A stretch of DNA of 10,259 nt, taken from contig CAAEKI010000253.1 of the NCBI GenBank assembly GCA_900756495.1, positions 1 to 10,259 of the forward strand. Reading direction: 5' to 3'. Position numbers and translations under genes: made by a program. The DNA comes from an uncultured Oscillospiraceae bacterium (lineage in GTDB: Bacteria > Bacillota > Clostridia > Oscillospirales > Oscillospiraceae). This document shows, in pieces, positions 35 through 10,259 of this stretch. The notes under the pieces were generated by a model. That model searched no databases and had not been told where the DNA came from. It saw only the letters and a program-made list of their open reading frames with translations. The first letter of the stretch is position 1; every line of letters starts with the position of its first letter.

Positions 35-1729
35 TCATTCCCGATCCATGCCGCAGGCAGAGGCGGTCTCCATCAGGCATCTGTCGTTGGTTACCGCATC
101 ATAGAATCGGAACCCACCGGAAAAATTGTAGCAGTCATAGCCGTTCCCGGCGAGAATCCTGCAGGCGATATAGCTGCGCAGACCGCTCTGGCAGATTACA
201 TATACCGGCTTGCCGGGCGGAATCTCCCCCATCCGGTCCCGGAGTTCATCCACAGGAATATTTAAAAAGCCGTCGATGTGGCCCCGGCTGAACTCTGCCG
301 GAGTACGGACGTCCAGCAGTGTCACATTATCATCCATCCTCAGTCTGGCCACGTCCTCCAAATGGAATTGCTTCAGCAGTCCCCTGGAGATATTCTCGAT
401 CATAAAGCCCGCCATGTTCACCGGATCCTTGGCCGAGGAATAGGGAGGCGCATAGGCGAGGTCCAGTTCTTTGAGCTGAATTGCGTCCAGTCCCGCGTGG
501 ATTGCGGTAGCCAGCACGTCAATTCGTTTGTCAACGCCCTCATAACCCACAATCTGGGCCCCCAGCAGGCGGTAGGTGTTCCTCTCAAATATCACCTTTA
601 TGGTCATCACTTTGCCGCCGGGATAGTAGCCGGCGTGGCTCATGGGCGAAAGAACCACCTTATCTGCATCAATCCCCGCCTTCCGGGCCGTTATCTCATT
701 GATACCAGTGACCGCCGCAGTCATATTGAAAACCTTGATGACAGAGCTCCCCTGGGAGCCGGGATACCGGCTGTCTCCGCCGCAGATATTGTCGGCGGCA
801 ATGCGGCCCTGCCTGTTGGCGGGGCCCGCCAGAGCGATCAGCGTGTCCTCCCCCGTGACATAGTGTTTGACCTGCACCGCGTCGCCAACGGCGTAGATGT
901 CGGGGACAGAAGTCTCCATCCTGTCGTTAACCAGGATACTGCCCCTGGCCCCCAGGGCGAGGCCGGCCTCGCTTGCCAGGTGTGTATCCGGCGTGACGCC
1001 GATGGCAAGTACCACCATGTCAGCGTGGAGCGGCGCTTCCTCTCTGAGTAAAACATCAACGCCCCCGTCCTTCTCCACGAAGCCCTCTACTGTGTGTCCC
1101 AGGGCCAGCCTGACTCCATGCCTGCGCATTTCGCTGTGGATGAGCGCGGCCATGTCCGGATCAAAGGGGCTCATAAGCTGCGGTGGGCGCTGTACGATGG
1201 TGACCTCCATCCCCAGGCTCCGCAGGTTCTCCGCCAGCTCCAGGCCGATAAAGCCGCCGCCCGCCAGCACGGCAGATTTCGGGCGTTTCTTCTGGATATA
1301 CGCCTTGAGGCGAAGCGTATCCTCCACCGTGCGCAGAGTAAAAAGCTGCTCCAGGCTCCCGCCGGGGAGCCTGGGCCGGGTGGGCTGTGCGCCCGGCGAG
1401 AGGAGCAGCTTGTCATAGCGTTCCTCAAACTCCTCGTTGCTCTCCAGGTTTCTGACGGAGACGGTCTTCCGCTCCGGATGGATGGCAATGACCTCATGGC
1501 GCACCTTCATGTTCACCCGAAACCGGGAGAAAAAGCTCTCCGGCGTCTGAAGCGTCAGCTCCTCGGGATCCTCAATCGCGCCGCCGATGTAATATGGCAG
1601 GCCGCAGTTGGCGTAGGAGATGTAGCCCGAGCGCTCGAATACGACTATCTCCGCCTGCTCATCCAGCCTGCGGATCCTGGCGGCCGCGGTAGCGCCCCCC
1701 GCCACGCCGCCTACAATAACGACCTTCAC
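35..1729 (-). CDS. CoA-disulfide reductase-like FAD/NAD(P)H oxidoreductase with C-terminal rhodanese domain
   Basis: A 564-residue protein of the class III pyridine-nucleotide disulfide oxidoreductases. An N-terminal FAD motif (VGGVAGG, residues 6-12) is followed by the single active-site Cys42 in SYANCGLPYY, the pattern of CoA-disulfide reductases and NADH/persulfide reductases. A second dinucleotide motif, GGGFIG, sits at 157-162, and the FAD-contacting YAVGDAV at 279-285. The last ~110 residues are a rhodanese domain with active-site Cys513 in CQSGLRS. The family reduces CoA disulfides, persulfides or polysulfides with NAD(P)H; the fused rhodanese suggests sulfane-sulfur transfer. The start chosen is GTG at 1729, one base after the upstream rhodanese stop, with an AAAGGTGGAG ribosome site; an upstream in-frame start at 1762 would overlap that gene by 32 bases. 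Expected cytosolic, with no signal peptide. Exact substrate (CoA-S-S-CoA, persulfide or polysulfide) is open. Confidence 0.9.
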   Translation of the reverse strand: MKVVIVGGVAGGATAAARIRRLDEQAEIVVFERSGYISYANCGLPYYIGGAIEDPEELTLQTPESFFSRFRVNMKVRHEVIAIHPERKTVSVRNLESNEEFEERYDKLLLSPGAQPTRPRLPGGSLEQLFTLRTVEDTLRLKAYIQKKRPKSAVLAGGGFIGLELAENLRSLGMEVTIVQRPPQLMSPFDPDMAALIHSEMRRHGVRLALGHTVEGFVEKDGGVDVLLREEAPLHADMVVLAIGVTPDTHLASEAGLALGARGSILVNDRMETSVPDIYAVGDAVQVKHYVTGEDTLIALAGPANRQGRIAADNICGGDSRYPGSQGSSVIKVFNMTAAVTGINEITARKAGIDADKVVLSPMSHAGYYPGGKVMTIKVIFERNTYRLLGAQIVGYEGVDKRIDVLATAIHAGLDAIQLKELDLAYAPPYSSAKDPVNMAGFMIENISRGLLKQFHLEDVARLRMDDNVTLLDVRTPAEFSRGHIDGFLNIPVDELRDRMGEIPPGKPVYVICQSGLRSYIACRILAGNGYDCYNFSGGFRFYDAVTNDRCLMETASACGMDRE

Positions 1730-2427: not shown

Positions 2428-3078
2428 TTATTCCTCCTGCTCAAGGCCGTCAAGCAACGCTGCCAGCTCCTCTGATTCCCATGCCGGCTTAAAGTCCAGC
2501 CGTGTCAGCGCGTCCCGGAACGCCGTCACAAGGGCGTTCCACATCTGCTGCCGCTCCAGCAGCTCCTCCAGATACTGCTCCCAGGTGTAATCCTTTCCGG
2601 CATTGAGCTGGCAGTGATAGTAGGCGATTTCACACCTGAAAAAAATTGCGCCCACGATAGCGCGCCTTTCTTCCGCAGGGAAGAGCTGTGAGCAGCGGAG
2701 GCTGCCGTTCCGCTGGTCGCGCACGTCATCAGCATGGAAGAAATGGATATCCTCTGCTTCAAAATTGAAAAAGCCGTTATGGAAGAAATCTCTGAGTGTG
2801 CGCCAGCAGGCTGCTATGGCTGCATTCCGCAGCATTTTGACGCTGCGAATTGTCAGGACAAAATCATCCCATGACCAATCGTCAGGCAGTCCGCCATCTT
2901 CCGCTTGGCACAGTTCGTATAAGTCCCGCTGCACCCGGTAAGTGAGATACCGGGCATAGACGTCAATTTCCTCCTGATCGTCTAACGACAGATAGCGGTT
3001 GGAGGTGAAGATTTTTTCTATGGGCGTCTCATGTTCCGCCCGCCGCAGGCGGCTCCCTCTATGGCCGGTTTTGCTCAT
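2428..3078 (-). CDS. Unrecognised acidic helical protein, second gene of a coupled pair
   Basis: A 216-residue soluble protein that I do not recognise. It has a basic N-terminus (MSKTGHRGSRLRR), is then largely acidic, and is rich in aromatic residues (for example WSWDDF near 68-73 and FFHNGFFNFEAEDIHFF near 98-114), which suggests an all-helical fold. There is no signal peptide, membrane span or obvious catalytic motif. The ATG at 3078 overlaps the stop of the upstream gene by four bases (ATGA) and has a GGAGAAG ribosome site, so the two proteins are made together and may bind each other. The gene lies downstream of the control region shared with the XRE1 regulator. GC content looks lower than in the flanking metabolic genes. 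Function unknown. Confidence 0.7.
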   Translation of the reverse strand: MSKTGHRGSRLRRAEHETPIEKIFTSNRYLSLDDQEEIDVYARYLTYRVQRDLYELCQAEDGGLPDDWSWDDFVLTIRSVKMLRNAAIAACWRTLRDFFHNGFFNFEAEDIHFFHADDVRDQRNGSLRCSQLFPAEERRAIVGAIFFRCEIAYYHCQLNAGKDYTWEQYLEELLERQQMWNALVTAFRDALTRLDFKPAWESEELAALLDGLEQEE

Positions 3079-3779
3079 TGCTCTTCTCCATTTTTGGGTT
3101 CGCCGTCTGCCGCTCCCCCTATGTTCATCAAACAGCGCCTGCTGCGCGCTTCCCCTTCCTGTTCCTCCAGGGTTTGCAGAAAGCCCAGTGCGTGCTCCAT
3201 TTTCAGAATTTTTCCGACCCTCTTTCCTTTGCTGCCAAGCGGTGTGGCGGTGTCAATCGTGGAAAACGCATAGCGGAACCCCAAATAAAAGCCGTAGCGC
3301 ACTACGCCATAGAGGCGGTTGTCCCAGGCGCTGTACAAGTCTGTCACGTGCGCCTGGGTTTCCTCGTCAAGCTGCTGTTCCACCTGAGCAAAGAGGTCAT
3401 TGACCTGTTCCCGCTTCTGGCAGTAACCGACATGCCGTTTCATGCCGGGCATGGTCATAATCTGATTTTCAATATAGATGTCAAAGGCATCTTCCGGCGT
3501 TTCCTGCGCAAAAAACTGCTCAAAGCCCGCATATACTCCCTGGGAAAATGAAAAACGGAGGGCATATGAGATGTTCTCGCGGCACAGCTTCTCCGCCTCC
3601 AGCAAGGCGGCCTTTTGTTCCGCGGTCAAGGCCGGGAGCAGAACGGCCTTTTCCTCCAGCGTCTCCCAGTTCAGCTCATAATCCTCCAGCTCCGGCCGGT
3701 AAGCCGCTTCCATCTCCTCCAGCAATTCGGGCGTAAACATCCGCTCCTGCATCGCCGCCAGTTCATTCTTAAAATTCAT
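3075..3779 (-). CDS. Unrecognised helical protein with internal duplication, first gene of a coupled pair
   Basis: A 234-residue soluble protein of unknown function. The start is ATG at 3779 with AGAGGGG eight bases upstream; an in-frame GTG at 3788 lies on top of that site and is unlikely. Two similar helical segments can be seen: residues 72-90 (YALRFSFSQG, then VYAGFEQFF) and 157-173 (YGVVRYGFYLGFRYAFS). Each follows a stretch resembling L-T/D-x-E-x-x-x-x-x-x-x-L, so the protein may be a tandem repeat of one helical unit. The units vaguely resemble small DUF6809-type proteins of clostridial mobile elements (QK...L...GFxLG); this is from memory and untested. It overlaps the downstream gene by four bases and is divergent from the XRE1 gene, which may regulate it. 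Confidence 0.7.
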   Translation of the reverse strand: MNFKNELAAMQERMFTPELLEEMEAAYRPELEDYELNWETLEEKAVLLPALTAEQKAALLEAEKLCRENISYALRFSFSQGVYAGFEQFFAQETPEDAFDIYIENQIMTMPGMKRHVGYCQKREQVNDLFAQVEQQLDEETQAHVTDLYSAWDNRLYGVVRYGFYLGFRYAFSTIDTATPLGSKGKRVGKILKMEHALGFLQTLEEQEGEARSRRCLMNIGGAADGEPKNGEEQ

Positions 3780-3785
3780 GTTAAA

Positions 3786-3887
3786 CACCCCTCTATAAAT
3801 GCGCCCACTATACCGCTATAGGGGACAATATCTACCATAAGGGATTATATTTTTCCCTAAATTGCGATATTTTTCCTCTACAGGGGA
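3786..3887. promoter_or_regulatory. Divergent control region with repeated TATAGGGGA-like boxes
   Basis: Between the unrecognised gene pair and XRE1 there are several related boxes: TACCGCTATAGGGGA (3811-3825), TACCATAAGGGAT (3833-3845), TCCTCTACAGGGGA (3874-3887), and inverted versions near 3786-3799 (TATAGAGGGG on minus) and 3852-3860. A similar box, TACCCTTATAGGGG (4271-4284), lies directly before XRE2. Repetition at both XRE promoters suggests an operator of these regulators. No convincing -35/-10 pair could be fixed. Confidence 0.4.
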
Positions 3888-3921: not shown

Positions 3922-4218
3922 ATGGGAAATCGGATTTTACAACGTCGCAAGCAGATGCGCATGAGCCAAGAGCAGTTAACTGAGTTAGCAGGAGTTTCTG
4001 TCAAAACGGTTATCTCGGCAGAGAAGGGACAAAAGGCTCTCCGTCCAGAAAATATTGTGCGGTTCAGCAAAGCGCTTAATATGGAGCTGTCCTATCTAAT
4101 GACTGGAGAGCTATCGGACAGAGATATCCTGTCCGGCCTAAGTCACCGGGAGCGTATGGCCTTGGACAAAATCTTGGAAGGGTTTCTTTCCATTTGCAAA
4201 GGAGAACAAGACCCATGA
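3922..4218 (+). CDS. XRE-family (Cro/CI-type) DNA-binding regulator, XRE1
   Basis: A 98-residue protein with an N-terminal HTH_3 domain at about 4-60 (scan helix around MSQEQLTELAGVSVKTV, residues 14-30) and a short helical tail, SHRERMALDKILEGFLS. Members of this family bind operator palindromes as dimers, usually repressing their own promoter. The ATG at 3922 is the only in-frame start, because TAA lies at 3904-3906, yet it has no good ribosome site close by; an AGGAAAAG sits instead before a three-codon mini-frame (ATG TTT TAG) at 3908-3916. Expression may need reinitiation or be leaderless. XRE2 is a close paralogue immediately downstream. Its likely target is the shared control region with the divergent minus-strand pair. 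Confidence 0.88.
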   Translation: MGNRILQRRKQMRMSQEQLTELAGVSVKTVISAEKGQKALRPENIVRFSKALNMELSYLMTGELSDRDILSGLSHRERMALDKILEGFLSICKGEQDP

Positions 4219-4270
4219 GAGGATTATCACCCCTATGGTGGATTAAAAAAACCGTTTATTTGGGATAATA

Positions 4271-4284
4271 TACCCTTATAGGGG
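4271..4284 (+). promoter_or_regulatory. TATAGGGG-type box just before XRE2, probable operator
   Basis: TACCCTTATAGGGG matches the boxes at 3811-3825 and 3874-3887 and overlaps the ribosome site of XRE2 (the G-run at 4281-4287). A -10-like GATAAT lies just upstream at 4264-4269 without a clear -35. A protein bound here would block both transcription and access to the ribosome site. Confidence 0.4.
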
Positions 4285-4292
4285 GGGATTGC

Positions 4293-4619
4293 ATGGAAAG
4301 TGAAACGCTGAGGGAGATTGGAAAACGCCTCGCGCACACACGTAAAGCGAAAGGGTACACGCAGGAGCAGTTGGCAAATCTCACTGGACTTTCAATAAAA
4401 ATGATCTCTGCTGCGGAGAATGGACACAAAGCCATGCGCCCGGAGAATATTATCAAAATCTGTGGTTGCCTTTCTATCTCTGCCGATTATTTACTTTGTG
4501 GCGAATCCCCTACCTTGCATTCAATGGTATCCGCCAGCGAACTCAAACACTTGTCATCAAAGCAAAAAGAAGCGTTATCAAAGCTGATTGAGGACTTCCT
4601 TTCAGCATTTCAAGATTAG
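4293..4619 (+). CDS. XRE-family DNA-binding regulator, XRE2 (paralogue of XRE1)
   Basis: A 108-residue Cro/CI-type protein. The HTH_3 domain spans about 7-67 (YTQEQLANLTGLSIKMIS in the middle), followed by a C-terminal helix, SSKQKEALSKLIEDFLSAF. The start is ATG at 4293 behind a run of seven G. It shares with XRE1 the pattern QEQLxxLxGxSxK, then SAxxxxxKAxRPENI, then YLxxGE and a final ALxKxxExFLS, so the two arose by duplication and may bind related sites or form heterodimers. It lies 74 bases after XRE1 with its own promoter region. A strong terminator follows 61 bases after the stop. Confidence 0.9.
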   Translation: MESETLREIGKRLAHTRKAKGYTQEQLANLTGLSIKMISAAENGHKAMRPENIIKICGCLSISADYLLCGESPTLHSMVSASELKHLSSKQKEALSKLIEDFLSAFQD

Positions 4620-4680
4620 ATGCTCTTCTTGGAGGCACAGAAAAGTTCTAGATCAAACAACAGAAAATCTTTGATACAAC

Positions 4681-4710
4681 GAGCTATCTCTTAAAGATAG
4701 CTCATTTTTT
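4681..4710 (+). terminator. Intrinsic terminator after XRE2
   Basis: A perfect 9-bp stem (4681-4689 with 4695-4703), a 5-base loop CTTAA, and then A plus six T at 4705-4710. This is a classic plus-strand rho-independent terminator ending the XRE1-XRE2 unit. Confidence 0.9.
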
Positions 4711-4815
4711 CTGCTTCCAGCCGGCAGGAAATTTCTTTTATAGAGCCCTTGTTCCCCTACCCCCTGCGGACGGTTCTCTGTACGGCCTGTTTTGCTTATT
4801 TGTCCATTCTGCCTT
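4711..4815. other. Intergenic stretch between convergent XRE2 and hfq-like genes
   Basis: 105 bases with no recognised gene or RNA. The XRE2 terminator stem (4681-4703) could also slow minus-strand transcripts from the hfq-like gene, but it lacks a minus-strand T-run, so no dedicated hfq terminator is seen. Confidence 0.4.
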
Positions 4816-5232
4816 TCATTCACGGACTACTGCTCCCACTTTATACAGAGAGATGTACCAAATATCAGAGAGTATTAAAATCGGAAAAAACTGCTGGTAT
4901 GGCACAGCCTGTTCAGGCTCAATCGTTGAGATTGCGTGCTTGAAGATGATATTTTGTTTCTGATCACTAATCGTTCTGACCGCGACGGTATAGTGGTCAA
5001 AGGCTTCTATGATACCCTTTAGCTGAAATCCATTCATCAGGTATAAAGTGACCTTCGTTCTTTGTGTGCGCATCCTATTTAGAAAGGCATCCTGAACATT
5101 ACACGCTTGTATAAACACCTCGCCATTTCTATATAGCGGATAATACTCCTTGATGGGAGAATTACAGGTTACTGTTTCAATGGAATTGCCGTTGCTGTTC
5201 AGAATATTGACGGATAGGTATTCGCCCCTCAT
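4816..5232 (-). CDS. hfq: Hfq-like Sm RNA-binding protein with N-terminal extension
   Basis: A 138-residue protein whose middle matches Hfq. Residues ~45-107 align with the start of Hfq (VQDAFLNRMR against E. coli LQDPFLNALR), Sm1 (VTLYLMNGFQLKGIIEAFD against VSIYLVNGIKLQGQIESFD) and Sm2 (IIFKHAISTI against MVYKHAISTV). The Gln of the proximal U-binding pocket, the Tyr/Gly of the distal face and the KH pair are kept; YKH becomes FKH, and the rim arginines are partly kept (RMRTQR). Hfq forms hexamers that bind sRNA and mRNA. Unlike ordinary Hfq (about 70-100 aa), it has ~44 extra N-terminal residues and ~30 after Sm2. The usual miaA neighbour is absent. ATG 5232 is the first in-frame start but has a weak ribosome site; no better internal start was found. 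It diverges from XRE3. Probably a second, acquired Hfq. Confidence 0.85.
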   Translation of the reverse strand: MRGEYLSVNILNSNGNSIETVTCNSPIKEYYPLYRNGEVFIQACNVQDAFLNRMRTQRTKVTLYLMNGFQLKGIIEAFDHYTVAVRTISDQKQNIIFKHAISTIEPEQAVPYQQFFPILILSDIWYISLYKVGAVVRE

Positions 5233-5247
5233 CTCTAACTTAATTTC

Positions 5248-5263
5248 AGATACTATAATATCT
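5248..5263. promoter_or_regulatory. Near-palindrome in the hfq-like promoter region
   Basis: AGATACTATAATATCT is a 16-bp inverted repeat with one mismatched pair, 16 bases upstream of the hfq-like ATG. On the minus strand it contains TATTAT/TATAGT, which could be the -10. It shares the 8-mer CTATAATA with the palindrome before XRE3. Confidence 0.4.
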
Positions 5264-5312
5264 TTTTTTGTCCAAAACGGATAATATATGTGTAATCAAC
5301 GACAAAAAATAA

Positions 5313-5332
5313 TGCTATTATCTATAATAGCA
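5313..5332. promoter_or_regulatory. Perfect palindrome upstream of XRE3, probable operator
   Basis: Arms TGCTATTAT (5313-5321) and ATAATAGCA (5324-5332) are exact reverse complements around a 2-base centre. The right arm overlaps a TATAAT-like -10 (5323-5328) and runs into the XRE3 ribosome site AGGTGAT (5332-5338). This is the right size and place for an autoregulatory operator of a dimeric Cro/CI-type protein. Confidence 0.6.
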
Positions 5333-5341
5333 GGTGATATG

Positions 5342-5641
5342 ATGAATCTTGATATAAGCGCAAGGATAAAAGAACTGAGAGAAGCACAAGGATTATCTAC
5401 AAATAAACTCTCCAATATGGCAGGGTTATCTCAAAGCTATGTGCGGAAGCTGGAAAAAGGCGAAAGTAGACCAACGGTTGAATCGTTGGAATTGCTATGT
5501 CATGCGTTAGGTATTACTTTTGAGGACTTTATAAATTATAAAGATAAATCCATTGTACAACTTCGAGCTATTAAAATTATTGGAGAATTAAGTGATAGCC
5601 AGCTAGAAGGTTTTTGTAAGTTAATGGGCACAGACTCTTAG
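5342..5641 (+). CDS. XRE-family DNA-binding regulator, XRE3, divergent from hfq-like gene
   Basis: A 99-residue Cro/CI-type protein. The HTH_3 domain is at about 5-62 (helix-turn-helix around LSTNKLSNMAGLSQSYVRKL, residues 18-37; then the usual EKGESRPT turn). A short tail, IKIIGELSDSQLEGFCKLM, may dimerise. ATG 5342 has AGGTGAT at optimal distance; ATG 5339 is too close and the frame start at 5288 has no ribosome site. Clearly AT-rich compared with the flanking operons. It shares a 109-base control region with the hfq-like gene, holding a perfect palindrome and a near-palindrome, so it probably represses itself and possibly hfq. No clear terminator follows. Confidence 0.9.
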   Translation: MNLDISARIKELREAQGLSTNKLSNMAGLSQSYVRKLEKGESRPTVESLELLCHALGITFEDFINYKDKSIVQLRAIKIIGELSDSQLEGFCKLMGTDS

Positions 5642-5686
5642 TTAGAATCATAAGCGTTATTTTATTATATCAAAAATCAATTAGCT

Positions 5687-5704
5687 TGTCTATTATCATA
5701 GACA
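5687..5704. promoter_or_regulatory. Palindrome upstream of XRE4, probable operator
   Basis: TGTCTAT (5687-5693) and ATAGACA (5698-5704) are exact reverse complements around TATC. The sequence CTATTATC is shared with the XRE3 palindrome, pointing to one binding protein or one protein family acting at both sites. A -10-like TATTAT sits inside (5691-5696) without a good -35. Confidence 0.5.
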
Positions 5705-5760
5705 TTTTTCTTTCCTATCTCTTTTACAATCTGTGCTTAAGAGAGGTAGGTGGGAATGAT

Positions 5761-6012
5761 ATGCACTTTGATTCTCTTGTGGTTGGACAAACAATTCGCA
5801 GATTAAGAAAAACGAGAAGACTTTCACAAGATGTTTTAAGTGGCCTCGCCGGGATTGCGCGTACCCACTTAACAATGATTGAAAATGGTTCCAAACAGCC
5901 GAATTTTGAAACAGTCTGGAAAATTGCTTTAGCCTTAAATTTACGTCCAAGTGAACTTGTTAGCATTATAGAGAAGGAAATAGAGGACACCAGCCGTTTG
6001 AACATGGGGTGA
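5761..6012 (+). CDS. XRE-family DNA-binding regulator, XRE4
   Basis: An 83-residue, almost pure HTH_3 domain (residues ~8-70; LSQDVLSGLAGIARTHLTMIE, residues 21-41, covers the helix-turn-helix and is followed by the ENGSKQPNFETVWKIA signature). The start is ATG 5761 with GGTGGG six bases before it; the longer frame beginning at 5686 has no ribosome site. Very short, like Cro-type repressors or the DNA-binding antitoxins of mobile elements. The last residues (about 78-83) may be read from a different segment: from about 6007 on, the opposite strand encodes a protein-like fragment, suggesting a junction at the gene end. AT-rich. Confidence 0.88.
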   Translation: MHFDSLVVGQTIRRLRKTRRLSQDVLSGLAGIARTHLTMIENGSKQPNFETVWKIALALNLRPSELVSIIEKEIEDTSRLNMG

Positions 6013-6084
6013 ATAGGTTCGGTAGAACTGGTCTAAGTAGTCCCTGTCCATGTCGTTCTTCAGTTCAGCGATATCCCTCAGCAT
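5941..6084 (-). pseudogene. Possible fragment of an unrecognised mobile-element gene
   Basis: On the minus strand from 6084 a 47-codon frame begins MLRDIAELKNDMDRDYLDQF and continues YRTYSP. These 26 residues have the composition of a real charged helical protein, then the frame becomes noise where it runs antisense to XRE4. There is no ribosome site and a stop lies just upstream, so it looks like the remnant of a disrupted gene rather than an expressed one. The family is not recognised. Confidence 0.25.
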
Positions 6085-6300
6085 AAGTATGATAACTTAA
6101 AAGACTTTCACAATACCGTAGCCAAAATCGAGGAAGATAAGGTGATAGGTGGTTTCATAAACGGTCGAAGAAAACAAATAATCCGAACCTATCTCCTATT
6201 GGAAACAGGTTCGGATTATTTTAGTTTGCCTTGTCTTGACAAAAAAGATGCTATCAATGGCTCGGGCATCCGACAAGTGGTATTTACACCTAAAAATTGA
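6037..6300 (+). pseudogene. Open frame of 87 codons without a good start, possible gene fragment
   Basis: After the stop at 6034-6036 this plus frame stays open to TGA at 6298-6300. It reads protein-like in places (HKYDNLKDFHNTVAKIEED, then KVIGGFINGRRKQIIRTYLL) but has no ATG and no ribosome site, and a 15-bp perfect hairpin lies within it. It may be the broken 3' part of a mobile-element gene or chance. The family is not recognised. Confidence 0.2.
6176..6223 (+). terminator. Intrinsic terminator-like hairpin downstream of XRE4
   Basis: Arms AAATAATCCGAACCT (6176-6190) and its exact complement (6207-6221) enclose a 16-base loop, with a T-rich right side (ATTATTTTAG). It is AT-rich at the base and GC-rich near the loop and would work best on the plus strand, probably ending the XRE3-XRE4 transcript. 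Confidence 0.6.
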
Positions 6301-6317
6301 ATACACGACGAGAATTT

Positions 6318-6349
6318 GAGGGGCTTTCTGTTCGCAGGGGGCCTCTTTT
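6318..6349 (+). terminator. UUCG-loop hairpin with G-U pairs, plus-strand terminator
   Basis: GAGGGGCTTTCTG (6318-6330), loop TTCG, then CAGGGGGCCTCTT (6335-6347) pair over 13 positions if G-U pairs are allowed (T6325-T6327 with G6338-G6340, and two more). Four T follow from 6346. The G-U pairs would be A-C mismatches on the other strand, so the structure is meaningful only in plus-strand RNA. It could end a short transcript beginning between the two hairpins, or be an attenuator before the 6395 frame. Confidence 0.5.
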
Positions 6350-6394
6350 CTCATACCCCGACGCTGCCGCAGGCCCTACAAGGAGGCGTTAGAA

Positions 6395-6505
6395 TTGTCA
6401 GCTAAAAACGAGCGACAGGAGGGACGTGTGGTATGGCTCACGTTAGGGAGATACACCTGTTCAAATGAAAAGGGCGGTGCGGATGGTGGAGCACAGGCCG
6501 GGTAA
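6395..6505 (+). CDS. Short frame with strong ribosome site, possible truncated gene start
   Basis: A perfect AAGGAGG (6380-6386) sits eight bases before TTG 6395, which opens a 36-codon frame beginning (M)SAKNERQEGRVVWLT. The first ~16 residues look like the N-terminus of a small basic mobile-element protein; the rest runs antisense through the end of the HEPN gene and looks random. A second frame with its own GGAGGG site starts at ATG 6433 (MAHVREIHLFK). I read this as a gene start cut off by the segment carrying the toxin-antitoxin pair, or as a leader peptide. Confidence 0.3.
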   Translation: MSAKNERQEGRVVWLTLGRYTCSNEKGGADGGAQAG

Positions 6506-6790
6506 ATCATCCGTGATGATCTCCCACACCAGCGTCATGTTCACGCCTTCATAGTCGTGGACGATGCGGTTGCGGAGGCCGTACATCTCATTCCAAGGGA
6601 TTTGCGGGTGTGCTTTTACAAAAGCATCGTCAGCGGATTTACAGAGTTCCCCCATCTGGCTCAAGTTGAACACACAAGCCTCCACAAGTTTTGTGTCCTT
6701 GATGAAGCTGTCATAGGAATACTCTTTGCAGTAGGCGATGATTTTCTCCGCATAGCCGAGCAGTTTTTGAAGGATGATCTCATTTCTCAT
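6461..6790 (-). CDS. hepT: HEPN-domain ribonuclease toxin, HepT-like (DUF86)
   Basis: A 109-residue all-helical HEPN/DUF86 protein with the family catalytic signature R73-x4-H78-D79-Y80 in RNRIVHDY, fully intact, so an active RNase is expected. In the HepT/MntA type of toxin-antitoxin system the toxin cleaves RNA and is silenced when the MNT partner AMPylates the Tyr of this motif (established for Shewanella and Aphanizomenon members). The start is ATG 6790 with GGGAG nine bases upstream, inside the end of the mntA gene (11-base overlap); a GTG at 6820 is less likely. Usual length for the family. It is the second gene of the operon. Confidence 0.88.
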   Translation of the reverse strand: MRNEIILQKLLGYAEKIIAYCKEYSYDSFIKDTKLVEACVFNLSQMGELCKSADDAFVKAHPQIPWNEMYGLRNRIVHDYEGVNMTLVWEIITDDLPGLCSTIRTALFI

Positions 6791-7079
6791 AAATCGTGAC
6801 TCCCGTGGATCTAATTTCACGGTCTATGGGCGACCCCTTCTCAATATGTGACACGTCCAGCAGATCCACTGGCATCTGGGTGGCGCGGCGCACATCCTCT
6901 ATCAGCCCGACAAAGCGCAGGCCCTTCAAACGGCTGTCCACCAACAGATCAATGTCGCTTTTTTCGGTGGATGTCCCCTTGGCTACCGAGCCGAACAAGA
7001 TGGCACTCCGCACACCATAGGCGTCAAAAATTGGCGTCAACTTTCCCTTGATTTCATTGATTGTCTGTACCCTAGACAT
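6780..7079 (-). CDS. mntA: Minimal nucleotidyltransferase antitoxin, MntA-like
   Basis: A 99-residue MNT-family protein of the DNA polymerase beta superfamily. It shows the motif GS-x10-DxD exactly: G30-S31, then D42-I43-D44 within LFGSVAKGTSTEKSDIDLLV, plus a third acidic strand at VDLLDV (D72). It is predicted to transfer AMP to the HepT tyrosine and so neutralise the toxin. ATG 7079 is preceded by AAGGAGGCG at ideal distance. The first gene of the operon, as usual for antitoxins. Its promoter at 7105-7133 is strong and close. Apart from defence or element maintenance, no other role is suggested by the context. Confidence 0.88.
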   Translation of the reverse strand: MSRVQTINEIKGKLTPIFDAYGVRSAILFGSVAKGTSTEKSDIDLLVDSRLKGLRFVGLIEDVRRATQMPVDLLDVSHIEKGSPIDREIRSTGVTIYEK

Positions 7080-7104
7080 GAGATCGCCTCCTTCCTTACT
7101 TTTT

Positions 7105-7133
7105 ATTATAGACGCTTGGAGGGAGAAAAACAA
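7105..7133 (-). promoter_or_regulatory. Promoter of the mntA-hepT operon
   Basis: On the minus strand, -35 TTGTTT (7133-7128) and a perfect -10 TATAAT (7110-7105) are separated by 17 bases, 26 bases before the mntA ATG. Upstream, TATGCTA (7145-7151) and TAGCATA (7172-7178) form an inverted repeat with a further TATAAT (7168-7173) in between, a possible operator or second promoter. Confidence 0.65.
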
Positions 7134-7364: not shown

Positions 7365-7450
7365 TGGTGCCGGTGGTGGGACTTGAACCCACACGGTGTT
7401 GCCACCAACGGATTTTGAGTCCGTCACGTCTGCCATTCCATCACACCGGC
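7365..7450 (-). tRNA. tRNA-Leu (anticodon CAA)
   Basis: On the minus strand the 7-bp acceptor stem GCCGGTG/CACCGGC, discriminator A (7368) and an encoded CCA (7367-7365) are clear. The anticodon stem ACGGA/TCCGT encloses the loop CTCAAAA, giving anticodon CAA. A long variable arm (GGTG-GCAA-CACC) and the T arm GTGGG-TTCAAGT-CCCAC confirm class II tRNA-Leu, reading UUG. Its 3' end faces the accessory region, the usual side for integration of mobile elements at tRNA genes. Confidence 0.97.
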
Positions 7451-7454
7451 AAAT

Positions 7455-7509
7455 CCGGCGCATCTAATACGCCGGTAAGCATTATAGCATGGGTTCCAAA
7501 CTGTGGCAA
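7455..7509 (-). promoter_or_regulatory. Promoter and leader hairpin of tRNA-Leu
   Basis: On the minus strand, -35 TTGCCA (7509-7504) and -10 TATAAT (7486-7481) are 17 bases apart, immediately after the stop codon of the HAD phosphatase gene. A short hairpin, CCGGCG/CGCCGG (7455-7460 with 7470-7475), lies in the 5' leader before the mature tRNA. No terminator separates the upstream operon, so some readthrough into the tRNA is possible. Confidence 0.8.
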
Positions 7510-7520
7510 GAGTTTTTTCA

Positions 7521-8348
7521 TCACTTCCGAAGAAGAAATTGTTCTACCGCCGCCCCCACGCCTCCTTCAGTATTGGACAGCGCCTGGAAACGGGCCGCCG
7601 CTTTTGCCTCCGGCGTGGCGTTGGCCATGGCAAAAGACCATCCGGCCCAAGAGAGCATCTCCAAATCGTTGCCCGCATCTCCAAAGGCCATCACCTGCCC
7701 CGCCTCTATTCCAAGCCTTGCGCATAAGGCTCTCAGCGCTGCGCATTTGGTAACGCCCTCTGCGGCCAATTCCAGGTTGCGCCGGAAAGAACAGGCTACC
7801 GTCAGCGGGCCGGTTTCTCCTACCTCGGCCAGCACCGACGGCCGGTCGCCGTCAGGCACGTCAAAGACATGAACTTTCTCAACCGTCAGATCCGCCGTGG
7901 CATCATCCAGGCTGTCCACCACATCGGTGTGCCGCTCAAACGTAGCCAGGAATTCCGGCGTCACTGCTGCAGCCCGGACAATCTCCAGCAAACGGCGCTC
8001 AACCAGATTCTTTCCGCTGCAGTAGACTTCGAATGGCAGCCTCCGCTGGCGCAGAACCTCAAAAATGGCGTTGGCCTGGGCGTGCGGCAGTCCTTTCCGA
8101 ACCAGCCACTCCCCTCGCTCCGCATCCAGTACCGCCGCGCCGTTGGAGCAGACCGCGTAGCGAATCACGCCCAACTGGGCGGCCACGTCAGTGAGAAGCG
8201 CCCAAGCCCGGCCGCTGGCAATGGATACCGCCGCGCCCTGCGCTGCAGCTGCCCGCAGGGCGCGGATGTTGCGCTCAGGAATTGTAGCGTGGTCATCGTC
8301 CAAAAGCGTCCCATCCAAATCCAGCGCAATCAGCTTTATCTCTTCCAT
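7521..8348 (-). CDS. Cof-type HAD-IIB sugar-phosphate phosphatase
   Basis: A 275-residue haloacid dehalogenase superfamily protein. Motif I is ALDLDGTLL, with nucleophile Asp10 and Asp12; motif II is Ser45 in SIASGRA; the motif III Lys is in EGVTK; motif IV is GDAGNDLEML (Asp224, Asp228). The large cap between about 85 and 190 and the length fit the Cof/YidA type (HAD-IIB), which hydrolyse sugar phosphates, FMN or PLP with Mg2+. The start ATG 8348 follows the transketolase C-half stop after one base, with AAGGG before it. The operon with transketolase hints at a pentose- or erythrose-phosphate substrate or at removal of a toxic by-product; the family is promiscuous, so this is only a guess. 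Confidence 0.9.
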   Translation of the reverse strand: MEEIKLIALDLDGTLLDDDHATIPERNIRALRAAAAQGAAVSIASGRAWALLTDVAAQLGVIRYAVCSNGAAVLDAERGEWLVRKGLPHAQANAIFEVLRQRRLPFEVYCSGKNLVERRLLEIVRAAAVTPEFLATFERHTDVVDSLDDATADLTVEKVHVFDVPDGDRPSVLAEVGETGPLTVACSFRRNLELAAEGVTKCAALRALCARLGIEAGQVMAFGDAGNDLEMLSWAGWSFAMANATPEAKAAARFQALSNTEGGVGAAVEQFLLRK

Positions 8349-8349
8349 C

Positions 8350-9297
8350 TCAGCCCTTGCGCTTCAAGGCCTCGCGCGCCTTGGCGGCAATTCCCTCGGG
8401 AGTCAGTCCGAAATACTCCAGTACCTGCTGGGCCTTGCCGGAACGTCCAAAGACGTCCTCCACCCCATGGCGGATAACCGGCACAGGACAGTGCTCCGAC
8501 AAATACTCGGCCACAGCGGCCCCCAGTCCTCCAATCACATTGTGCTCCTCAGTGGTGACCACTGCGCCGGTCTCTTCGGCGGCTTTTTTCAGCAGCTCCC
8601 CGTCCAGCGGCTTAATGGTGTGCATGTCAATCACCCGTGCGCAGATACCCTCAGCGGCCAAAATTTCTGCCGCCTTCAGCGCCATCTGAACCATCATGCC
8701 CACGGCCACAATGGTCACGTCTCCTCCGTCCCGCAGCGTAATCCCCTTGCCCAGTTCGAAGGTATAGCCGGGAATAGAGCCGGTGACGCTCTCCACCGCC
8801 AGGCGGCCCAGCCGCATATAGGCGGGGCCGTCATAGTCCAGCAGGGCCTTTACGGCATGGCGCATCTCAGGGCCGTCACAGGGGGATACCACCAGCATAT
8901 TGGGAATAACCCGCATCACCGCGTAGTCCTCACAGCACTGGTGGGTGGCGCCGTCCTCGCCTACGGATACCCCCCCATGGGAGCCCACCACCTTCACATT
9001 AAGGCGGGGATAGGCGATGGAATTGCGCACCTGCTCAAACGCCCGCCCAGCGGCAAACATGGCAAAGGTGTTGGTAAAGGGTTTCTTTCCGCAGGCGGCC
9101 AGTCCGGCAGCCACAACTGTCATATTGGCCTCGGCAATCCCCATGTTGAAGAAGCGATCAGGATGCGCTGTGGCAAACCCCTTGGACATGGTGGAGCCGG
9201 ACAGGTCGGCATCCAGTACGACCAGCTCCGGATATTCCTCTGCCAGCGCCACCAGCGCCTCGCCATAGGCGGCACGCGTTGCAATCTTCTCGCTCAT
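8350..9297 (-). CDS. Transketolase, C-terminal half (pyrimidine-binding subunit)
   Basis: A 315-residue protein covering the Pyr and C-terminal domains of transketolase. It has GIAEANM at 53-59, with Glu56 as the residue that activates thiamine diphosphate, GSHGGVSVGEDGATHQ at about 105-120, and the transketolase C domain near 190-300 (IDMHTIKPLD and TTEEHNVIGG). In split enzymes it pairs with the N half to move two-carbon ketol units in the non-oxidative pentose phosphate pathway. ATG 9297 lies two bases after the N-half stop, with GGAGGGG before it, so equal synthesis of the two subunits is expected. The length fits split transketolases of Firmicutes. A DXS-type or other sugar specificity cannot be excluded but is less likely. 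Confidence 0.95.
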   Translation of the reverse strand: MSEKIATRAAYGEALVALAEEYPELVVLDADLSGSTMSKGFATAHPDRFFNMGIAEANMTVVAAGLAACGKKPFTNTFAMFAAGRAFEQVRNSIAYPRLNVKVVGSHGGVSVGEDGATHQCCEDYAVMRVIPNMLVVSPCDGPEMRHAVKALLDYDGPAYMRLGRLAVESVTGSIPGYTFELGKGITLRDGGDVTIVAVGMMVQMALKAAEILAAEGICARVIDMHTIKPLDGELLKKAAEETGAVVTTEEHNVIGGLGAAVAEYLSEHCPVPVIRHGVEDVFGRSGKAQQVLEYFGLTPEGIAAKAREALKRKG

Positions 9298-9299
9298 CT

Positions 9300-10145
9300 C
9301 TATTTCCCCTCCAGTTCCGCCAGCGCACCGCGCAGCTCTGCCATGGCCCTTTCATACTGCTCATCGTTAGGGGCCTTGCCATGCCAGCCGGCGTCATTTT
9401 CCATGAAGGAAACCCCTTTGCCTTTTACAGTCCTGGCCAGCAGAACCACAGGCGCCCCCTTCAAGGTTTTCGCCCGTGAAAAGGCCTCATCCAAGGCCGC
9501 CATATCGTGGCCGTCCACAGCGATTACCTGCCATCCAAAAGCCTGGAACTTCTGGTCCAGGGGTTCAGAAGGCATCACATCGGCGGTTCTGCCGTCAATC
9601 TGGAGCCCGTTTACATCTACCACAGCGCAGAGGTTATCCAGGTGGAACTTGGCCGCAGACATGGCCGCCTCCCACACCTGACCTTCCTCTACCTCGCCGT
9701 CGCCGAGGACAGCGTAAACCCGGTAGTCCTTTTGGTCCATCTTTCCCGCCAAGGCCATTCCCACAGCGGCGGAGATCCCCTGCCCCAGCGAGCCGGTTGA
9801 CATGTCTACGCCGGGGACATGCACCATATCGGGATGGCCGGAAAAATGCCCCTCAATGGATCGGAAGAGTTTCAGCTGCTCCTCCGGGAAATAGCCTCTG
9901 AGAGCCAGCGCCGCATAGAGCGCAGGCGTACAGTGGCCTTTGGAGAGGACAAGCCTGTCCCGTTCCGGGTCCTTCGGGTTCTTTGGGTCTACCCGCAGAA
10001 TGCTGAAATAGAGGTCGGTCAGTATATCCGCAACGGACAGCGAGCCGCCGATATGTCCGGAAGCGGCGGTATGGACCATATCCATCGCCAGCAGTCGAAC
10101 GCGGGCCGCCGCCGTCGCCAGGGCGTGCGCCTTTGCCTGTTCCAT
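9300..10145 (-). CDS. Transketolase, N-terminal half (thiamine diphosphate-binding subunit)
   Basis: A 281-residue protein with the transketolase PP domain. AASGHIGGSLS (28-37) is the sugar/phosphate-binding segment, SKGH is at 68-71, GSLGQGIS at 118-125, and the thiamine diphosphate motif GDGE at 148-151 ends in N179. The start is ATG 10145 with AAGGGTGAT seven bases upstream; an upstream in-frame start at 10190 has no ribosome site and would lie in the leader. It is the first gene of a three-gene operon (N half, C half, Cof phosphatase), with a strong promoter about 60 bases upstream. Split transketolase pairs are frequent in Clostridia. Confidence 0.95.
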   Translation of the reverse strand: MEQAKAHALATAAARVRLLAMDMVHTAASGHIGGSLSVADILTDLYFSILRVDPKNPKDPERDRLVLSKGHCTPALYAALALRGYFPEEQLKLFRSIEGHFSGHPDMVHVPGVDMSTGSLGQGISAAVGMALAGKMDQKDYRVYAVLGDGEVEEGQVWEAAMSAAKFHLDNLCAVVDVNGLQIDGRTADVMPSEPLDQKFQAFGWQVIAVDGHDMAALDEAFSRAKTLKGAPVVLLARTVKGKGVSFMENDAGWHGKAPNDEQYERAMAELRGALAELEGK

Positions 10146-10202
10146 TTGATCACCCTTCTCTTTTCTATCACTGGTTTTTTCACACAGCAATTTATCGTAT
10201 CC

Positions 10203-10231
10203 AGTATATTACACCAAGCCCTGAATTGCAA
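10203..10231 (-). promoter_or_regulatory. Promoter of the transketolase operon
   Basis: On the minus strand, -35 TTGCAA (10231-10226) and -10 TATACT (10208-10203) are separated by 17 bases. Transcription would start near 10196, giving a leader of about 50 nt before the ATG at 10145. No further operator was seen. Confidence 0.8.
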
Positions 10232-10259
10232 GGGGCAGAAAGGCCGGGCGGCCCAACGG

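Follow-up and report, generated by a model that had tools for sequence, protein, structure and literature searches.

A putative accessory Hfq divergent from an XRE-family repressor-like gene in an AT-rich stretch of an Oscillospiraceae genome

The window considered here is a stretch of 10,259 nucleotides from an uncultured Oscillospiraceae bacterium, and it harbors an open reading frame (the hfq ORF; 4816..5232, minus strand) of 138 amino acids, counted from its first ATG (ATG1), that carries an intact, real Hfq core. With a probability of roughly 0.55, this frame appears to encode an accessory second Hfq, derived from mobile DNA and placed under the control of a divergent repressor-like gene, XRE3, within a small AT-rich stretch beside a tRNA-Leu gene in an Oscillospiraceae species near Flavonifractor. 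The accessory nature is proposed because the relatives searched each have a single canonical Hfq, encoded beside mutL and/or HlyD_2 at the six of nine loci that could be read, unlike the gene in the window. The association with mobile DNA is proposed because relatives of XRE3 share promoter blocks with the window, face different genes and, in one case, lie near a relaxase.

Hfq is a homohexamer that binds U-rich and A-rich RNA. It is usually a single-copy RNA chaperone, and its role in Gram-positive bacteria is disputed. Membership of the hfq ORF in this family, which the sequence-only reading had claimed, is borne out by Pfam PF17209, matched by residues 46-110 (E 2.8e-26, 91.4 bits against a cut-off of 27), and by NCBIfam TIGR02383, passed with 87.6 bits against 61.7. 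The full-length NCBIfam models remain below their cut-offs, with NF001602 at 83.4 against 95 bits and NF010691, a model of 176 positions, at 61.1 against 270 bits. The core covers 4903..5100 (minus strand; residues 45-110) and has a two-residue insertion between its second and third thirds. Sm1, Sm2, the K-H pair and the first-helix glutamine are all present, and an alignment of 27 rows, which sets the window protein beside 26 of the 33 proteins that the protein search yielded, contains 14 invariant columns, including the start methionine, Q47, K98 and H99; the last three have a role in RNA contact. The best relative with a solved structure is, by sequence, B. subtilis Hfq (3ahu/3hsb; 2.7e-17 over residues 42-111), and the fold predicted by AlphaFold2 for a single chain gives Listeria and B. 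subtilis Hfq as its best Foldseek matches.

On either side of the core the frame is more unusual. Residues 1-44, if ATG1 is the start, form an N-terminal extension (5101..5232, minus strand), and residues 111-138 form a C-terminal tail (4819..4902, minus strand) without family match, which is 28 residues long and both orphan and hydrophobic. A search with residues 1-48 of about 5.8 billion proteins gave a sole match, P0001, which is identical there and 99% identical over the whole protein; it comes from a metagenomic contig of 586 bases and its cluster counts 13 members. The same 48 residues alone, used as a query against the protein collection, gave no match in a word search that compares proteins of similar length only, which leaves room for a match within far longer proteins. 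The N-terminal part matches nothing in Pfam or PHROGs, and in the PDB it has two weak matches (E 0.3 and 1). Near-identical P0001 aside, neither end of the window Hfq was seen elsewhere in the searches made, in keeping with the remark in the sequence-only reading that the extension matches nothing known. AlphaFold2 pLDDT, averaged per ten residues, is 41-54 in the extension and 27-47 in the tail, and because of the low values in the former the strands predicted at residues 6-11 and 17-23 are only a hint.

The N-terminal extension of Hfq is usually short, at about four residues (PMC6561178); in the window Hfq it amounts to 44 residues from ATG1 and to six from GTG39, an in-frame GTG (5118-5116, minus strand) that is the start codon nearest to the core. 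Predicted N-termini of more than the usual length are also seen in some other Hfqs, with about 24-26 residues before the core in proteins P0031 and P0027 and 26 residues from the nearest start at locus L106, and by eye these are unrelated to the extension in the window. It is quite possible that the same accessory Hfq is translated from GTG39, or from another internal codon, so that the protein has an N-terminus of canonical length and the 114 upstream bases are a leader left open by chance. The core motif could be located in 67 of 68 other Hfq loci (all but L186). Of these 67, 65 have their nearest start 1-6 residues ahead of the core, and in the other two the distance is 20 and 26 residues; by this measure the window is ordinary, GTG39 being within the common range. 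An open frame of such length is also not rare, since 5 of the 67 loci would likewise permit a start at least 44 residues upstream. The extension has no relatives to speak for it and ATG1 has no Shine-Dalgarno sequence (-0.9 kcal/mol), but GTG39 lacks one to the same degree (-0.9 kcal/mol). By coding score, the hfq frame is the best of six over both the extension and the tail, the former result arguing against an internal start, although 9.6% of stop-free shuffles score as well over the extension (3.8% over the tail and 3.7% over the core) and, within the core, a plus-strand frame with four stops outscores the hfq frame by 5.2 to 2.4. The identity of the extension in P0001 would argue in the same direction but is uninformative because that protein is too close. 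The evidence on translation of the extension is thus mixed: the additional 44 or so residues described in the sequence-only reading stand as an open frame from ATG1, but with a start codon six residues before the core they may not be part of the protein product.

Strong Shine-Dalgarno sequences are found in several neighboring genes, at -11.5 kcal/mol for XRE2, -11.7 for MntA, -9.8 for TktC and -9.5 for XRE4, and XRE1 resembles the hfq ORF in having none (+0.6). Since neither ATG1 nor GTG39 has one, hfq could be poorly translated; in addition, a promoter scan listed no sigma-70-like site for it. Both absences count against an accessory Hfq that is actually made. Along with the orphan hydrophobic tail and a long branch in the tree, they would fit a decaying fragment, in which an hfq core had recombined into the XRE3 slot and was no longer usefully translated. 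Such decay seems unlikely, however, given that all 138 codons from ATG1 are open in both the window and P0001, with a cluster of 13 members, and that the core retains the invariant residues of the alignment.

The accessory Hfq that we favor would lie in a small accessory stretch of DNA. As had been noted from the sequence, the setting is AT-rich, with a GC content of 0.32-0.46 in 500-base segments within 4001-6500 as against 0.54-0.64 within 1-2000 and 7501-10250. Here hfq is surrounded by four XRE genes, a HepT/MntA-like pair and a tRNA-Leu. XRE1 (3922..4218) and XRE2 (4293..4619), both assigned by Pfam, are on the plus strand, the latter with a terminator-like hairpin downstream (4681-4703). 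XRE3 (5342..5641, plus strand) matches Pfam HTH_3 at 2.5e-15, and XRE4 (5761..6012, plus strand) does so at 1.2e-12 for an ORF of 5686-6012 in which ATG 5761 has the strong Shine-Dalgarno sequence. The HepT-like gene (6461..6820, minus strand; Pfam HepT-like, 3.4e-22) and the MntA-like nucleotidyltransferase gene (6780..7079, minus strand; Pfam Polbeta, 7.3e-12; ORF 6780-7133 with ATG 7079 as the likely start) resemble a type VII toxin-antitoxin system; they pass the two Pfam cut-offs and remain below those of NCBIfam, with HepT_toxin at 41.3 and MntA_antitoxin at 46.1 bits against 60 in each case. The tRNA-Leu (CAA; 7365..7450, minus strand; Rfam match) borders the AT-rich stretch. A strong inverted repeat (6176-6221) with 21-base arms that are 90% complementary and a 4-base loop, listed as a terminator-like site of the minus strand, lies between XRE4 and the HepT-like gene.

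None of the 14 window ORFs scanned with Pfam is an integrase or relaxase, and no second copy of the tRNA-Leu end was found in the window as an 18-base repeat with up to 3 mismatches. The window therefore does not itself display the features of an integrative or mobilisable element, and the lack of integrase, relaxase and att repeat counts against the accessory reading.

The lineage of the host is indicated by the flanks. Among the loci listed (at least 80), the transketolase C subunit (TktC, Pfam) shares 84% identity with its counterpart in Flavonifractor plautii and 67-79% with the other 79. One or two candidates being scored per genome, 394 of 400 genomes of the family gave a match to window DNA; those matches that were listed fall in the two flanks, reach 76% identity at best and differ between the flanks in the genome that matches best. 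The flanks 1-2054 and 8100-10259 match different places in relatives, and no close match to the flavoprotein gene lies alongside any of the 80 transketolase loci listed. Elsewhere in the window, 2428-3788 holds two overlapping genes, one with a sub-threshold DUF6809 match and the other without Pfam match, and at 1542-1710 (plus strand), antisense to the flavoprotein/rhodanese gene, Rfam V_AS7 reaches 54.3 bits, short of its gathering score of 90, which probably reflects shared coding sequence.

The relationship between hfq and XRE3 is central to the proposed regulation. The two are divergent, as the sequence-only reading had it, across 109 bases (5233-5341), with ATG 5342 rather than 5288 as the likely start of XRE3. 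Two palindromes in this region are candidate XRE3 operators: one that is near-perfect (5248..5263; one mismatch over 8-base arms) and upstream of the hfq ORF, and one that is perfect (5314..5331; 8-base arms) and covers the TATAAT of the promoter-like site of XRE3. With overlapping palindromes entered separately, the observed counts were reached in 0.95% of 2000 shuffles for perfect and in 3.3% for near-perfect palindromes, and the promoter scan gave 12 sites for the region where shuffles gave 7.9 (sd 2.3). An HTH_3 gene with palindromes between it and its neighbor is the arrangement associated with a divergent repressor, the operators here being candidates only.

Close, full-length relatives of XRE3 are known from three of 390 family genomes (G458, G006 and G004; 87, 76 and 68%), and eight further genomes pass the threshold with matches that are weaker or shortened, up to 12 candidates being scored per genome. 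Promoter blocks of 39 bases are common to two of the three loci (L162 and L163) and the window at 90-92%, versus 73-77% over longer matches, and the palindrome near hfq shares 15 of its 16 bases with L163, is partly shared with L162 and is not evidently shared with L164. The genes that face the XRE3 relative encode, respectively, a YpsA/SLOG protein (L162), a protein of 276 amino acids without assignment (L163) and one of 337 amino acids with a sub-threshold zinc-ribbon match (L164). An AbiL-like pair is present at L162, a relaxase about 1 kb away at L163, and a phage integrase at L165, which has a shortened XRE3 relative. Viral contigs contain matches to XRE3 at 10 loci, at 32-45% identity, and among 98 plasmid records none reaches 60%. 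Judged from these three relatives, the XRE3 locus may be a slot in mobile or defence DNA that pairs a regulator with cargo, the cargo being Hfq in the window. The mobile carriage claimed in the sequence-only reading is in this way supported indirectly, through the relatives, where the relaxase and the integrase are found, but not by the genes of the window. That only three full-length relatives are known, one of them not evidently sharing the palindrome on the hfq side, weighs against the accessory reading.

The question of copy number depends on the resident hfq of related genomes. Exactly one canonical Hfq per genome was found in 9 of 9 relatives searched, and one likewise in G445, the best match by DNA. 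More broadly, an Hfq match was obtained in 342 of 390 family genomes and in 182 of 394 genomes of an order-wide sample; in both sets the remaining genomes may be incomplete or their genes missed. Two matches each are present in four family genomes (G260, G421, G692 and G741), and G344, from the order-wide sample, has three. The second copies of G692 and G741 were not counted as mobile, for they adjoin miaA and/or HlyD_2 (the miaA scan covered one copy per genome, and in G692 one copy only), and neither was that of G421, which is a contig-edge piece.

The sequence-only reading had regarded the lack of miaA context as a sign of an orphan gene. While miaA is indeed absent from the window, its absence is not diagnostic, because miaA is on a different contig from hfq in 9 of 10 relatives (G001-G007, G009 and G445) and adjoins it only in G008 (Anaerotruncus); the argument that a missing miaA proves an orphan was accordingly rejected. 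One or both of mutL and HlyD_2 adjoin the resident hfq in 6 of the 9 relatives' loci examined, these being all six that could be read (the hfq neighbors in G003, G004 and G445 could not). MutL domains are encoded next to hfq in G002, G005 and G006, and HlyD_2 in G001, G006, G007 and G009. The window, unlike these resident loci (L082-L086 and L088), has neither among its genes. The lineage thus probably had its ancestral hfq at a different locus, in agreement with the earlier description of an orphan, and the window hfq is probably an extra copy in its genome.

The same data bear on whether the host might instead have no hfq other than the one in the window, its resident copy having been lost, or having moved here and diverged. 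The 48 of 390 family genomes without an Hfq match leave room for losses, though these genomes may be incomplete or the search may have missed the gene, and the regular presence of a canonical hfq in the nine relatives and in G445 makes a sole copy distinctly unlikely. In a tree of 81 rows, the window Hfq is the longest tip (0.77, against a median of 0.051) and falls outside the resident group without a firm place. A clade uniting it with the resident Hfqs of the relatives is not rejected by the AU test (p 0.239), a result that is compatible with kinship to the residents and counts against the accessory reading. These comparisons speak neither for nor against a recent duplication of the resident gene. 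As the tree has 66 columns, the origin of the window Hfq is not pressed further.

The accessory Hfq envisaged here would not be without parallel, since Hfq-like genes are found in other mobile or phage-like settings. In G344, two hfq genes (L230 8750-8980 and L231 7390-7641) adjoin phage integrases with XRE genes close by, accompanied in one of the two regions by genes for Erf and NinB. In G260, a 65-amino-acid Hfq-like ORF (L228 1489-1686; PF17209, 64.1 bits) is found among XRE genes, with a Spo0A_C-domain gene nearby and a serine integrase about 2.5 kb away. On a provirus contig (IMGVR_UViG_2914020768_000008; L234 5986-6216), an Hfq with 106.4 bits to PF17209 is encoded between a CI-like repressor and genes for Gam, an exonuclease and DnaD. 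These XRE-linked Hfqs are few, and all are without an extension of the type in the window. Viral scans with the Hfq alignment and with the Hfqs of L228, L226 and P0003 gave no matches, and a scan with the L234 Hfq recovered L234 alone. Pattern matches to the full-length window protein in genome contigs (81) and viral contigs (6) include no relative, pattern scans requiring exact short peptides and so missing distant relatives; with tblastn, none of 81 plasmid and 6 phage records reached 80% query coverage.

Several further candidates were set aside or can simply be recorded. MT835489.1 (L150), filed as a bacteriophage, looks like a bacterial scaffold and was not taken as a phage Hfq because mutS, mutL and miaA precede its hfq in the translations read. 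NZ_CP017270, filed as a plasmid, is annotated with mutS-mutL-miaA-hfq and was not taken as mobile. The 2.9-kb Paenibacillus plasmid pHD06 (NZ_CP013209.1; L237) has hfq as its sole listed gene, which could be either real or an assembly artefact, and another plasmid of the same strain also bears hfq. The 16-kb Caldicellulosiruptor plasmid pCALKR01 (NC_014719.1; L235 4001-4225) contains an unannotated Hfq-like stretch of 50% identity, preceded by two helix-turn-helix genes and one for an MBL-fold protein. Six expressions, among them 'prophage-encoded Hfq', 'phage-encoded Hfq' and 'viral Hfq', searched as exact wordings, are absent from 5.39 million papers outside subscription journals; mobile Hfq-like proteins as such have already been published (PMC5348863; PMC3543421).

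As to how the system might operate, XRE3 would bind both candidate palindromes and repress itself together with hfq, and relief of this repression would allow the accessory Hfq to be made. The protein would form the usual ring, bind U-rich and A-rich RNA like other Hfqs, and alter the stability or translation of RNAs of the element or the host beside the resident Hfq. The extension, if translated, would be present in six copies on the proximal/rim side, close to the N-terminal helices, and could limit or redirect RNA access there.

The sequence-only reading also raised the ideas that an Hfq on mobile DNA could rewire host sRNA regulation or act as a decoy; as a decoy, the window Hfq would mix with or compete against the resident ring. 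The conserved core could allow subunits to mix, and the plasmid-encoded Hfq3, when overproduced, disturbs its host through distal-face residues (PMC5348863); even so, we regard a decoy role as improbable. A broader proposal is that, in gut Clostridia, temperate phages and integrative elements have repeatedly been equipped with an XRE-switched Hfq near the repressor-integrase region, with which they seize RNA regulation on induction, the window protein being a remodelled member whose extension gates RNA access to the proximal face or blocks mixing with the resident ring; this we consider doubtful. A repressor-controlled extra Hfq on accessory DNA, with cousins in prophage-like regions, would provide a direct means of examining if mobile elements supply an RNA chaperone of their own and if that chaperone competes with the host's. 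The extension, if real, would be a natural test of the effect on RNA access of an addition adjacent to the first helix.

Compared with known systems, the window Hfq shares its Sm/Hfq core, predicted fold and Q47, K98 and H99 with the chromosomal Hfqs of Clostridia and Bacilli (PF17209, TIGR02383; B. subtilis 3hsb), but it differs from them in its orphan 44-residue N-terminal frame and 28-residue tail, in the two-residue insertion of the core and in its locus. It resembles the Hfqs of G344 (L230 and L231), G260 (L232) and the IMG/VR contig (L234) in having a PF17209 core encoded next to XRE genes, in those cases within prophage-like regions, whereas they have short N-termini and are accompanied by integrase or phage genes; the Hfq of L229 is 39% identical to the window protein. 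Likened by description rather than by sequence, Hfq3 of B. anthracis pXO1 is also an extra Hfq on mobile DNA in a Gram-positive bacterium with resident Hfqs, but it is plasmid-borne and the abstract of its report (PMC5348863) mentions no extension. The Hfq-like proteins of thermococcal plasmids are likewise borne by mobile elements, and three of the four named in PMC3543421 have an added N-terminal domain; this is a C2H2 zinc finger, absent from the window, and the proteins are archaeal. Finally, Burkholderia Hfq2 (PMC7074383) is chromosomal and has 175-216 residues with a C-terminal extension, but it is a longer, faster-evolving second Hfq that stands beside a canonical one, as the window Hfq would be.
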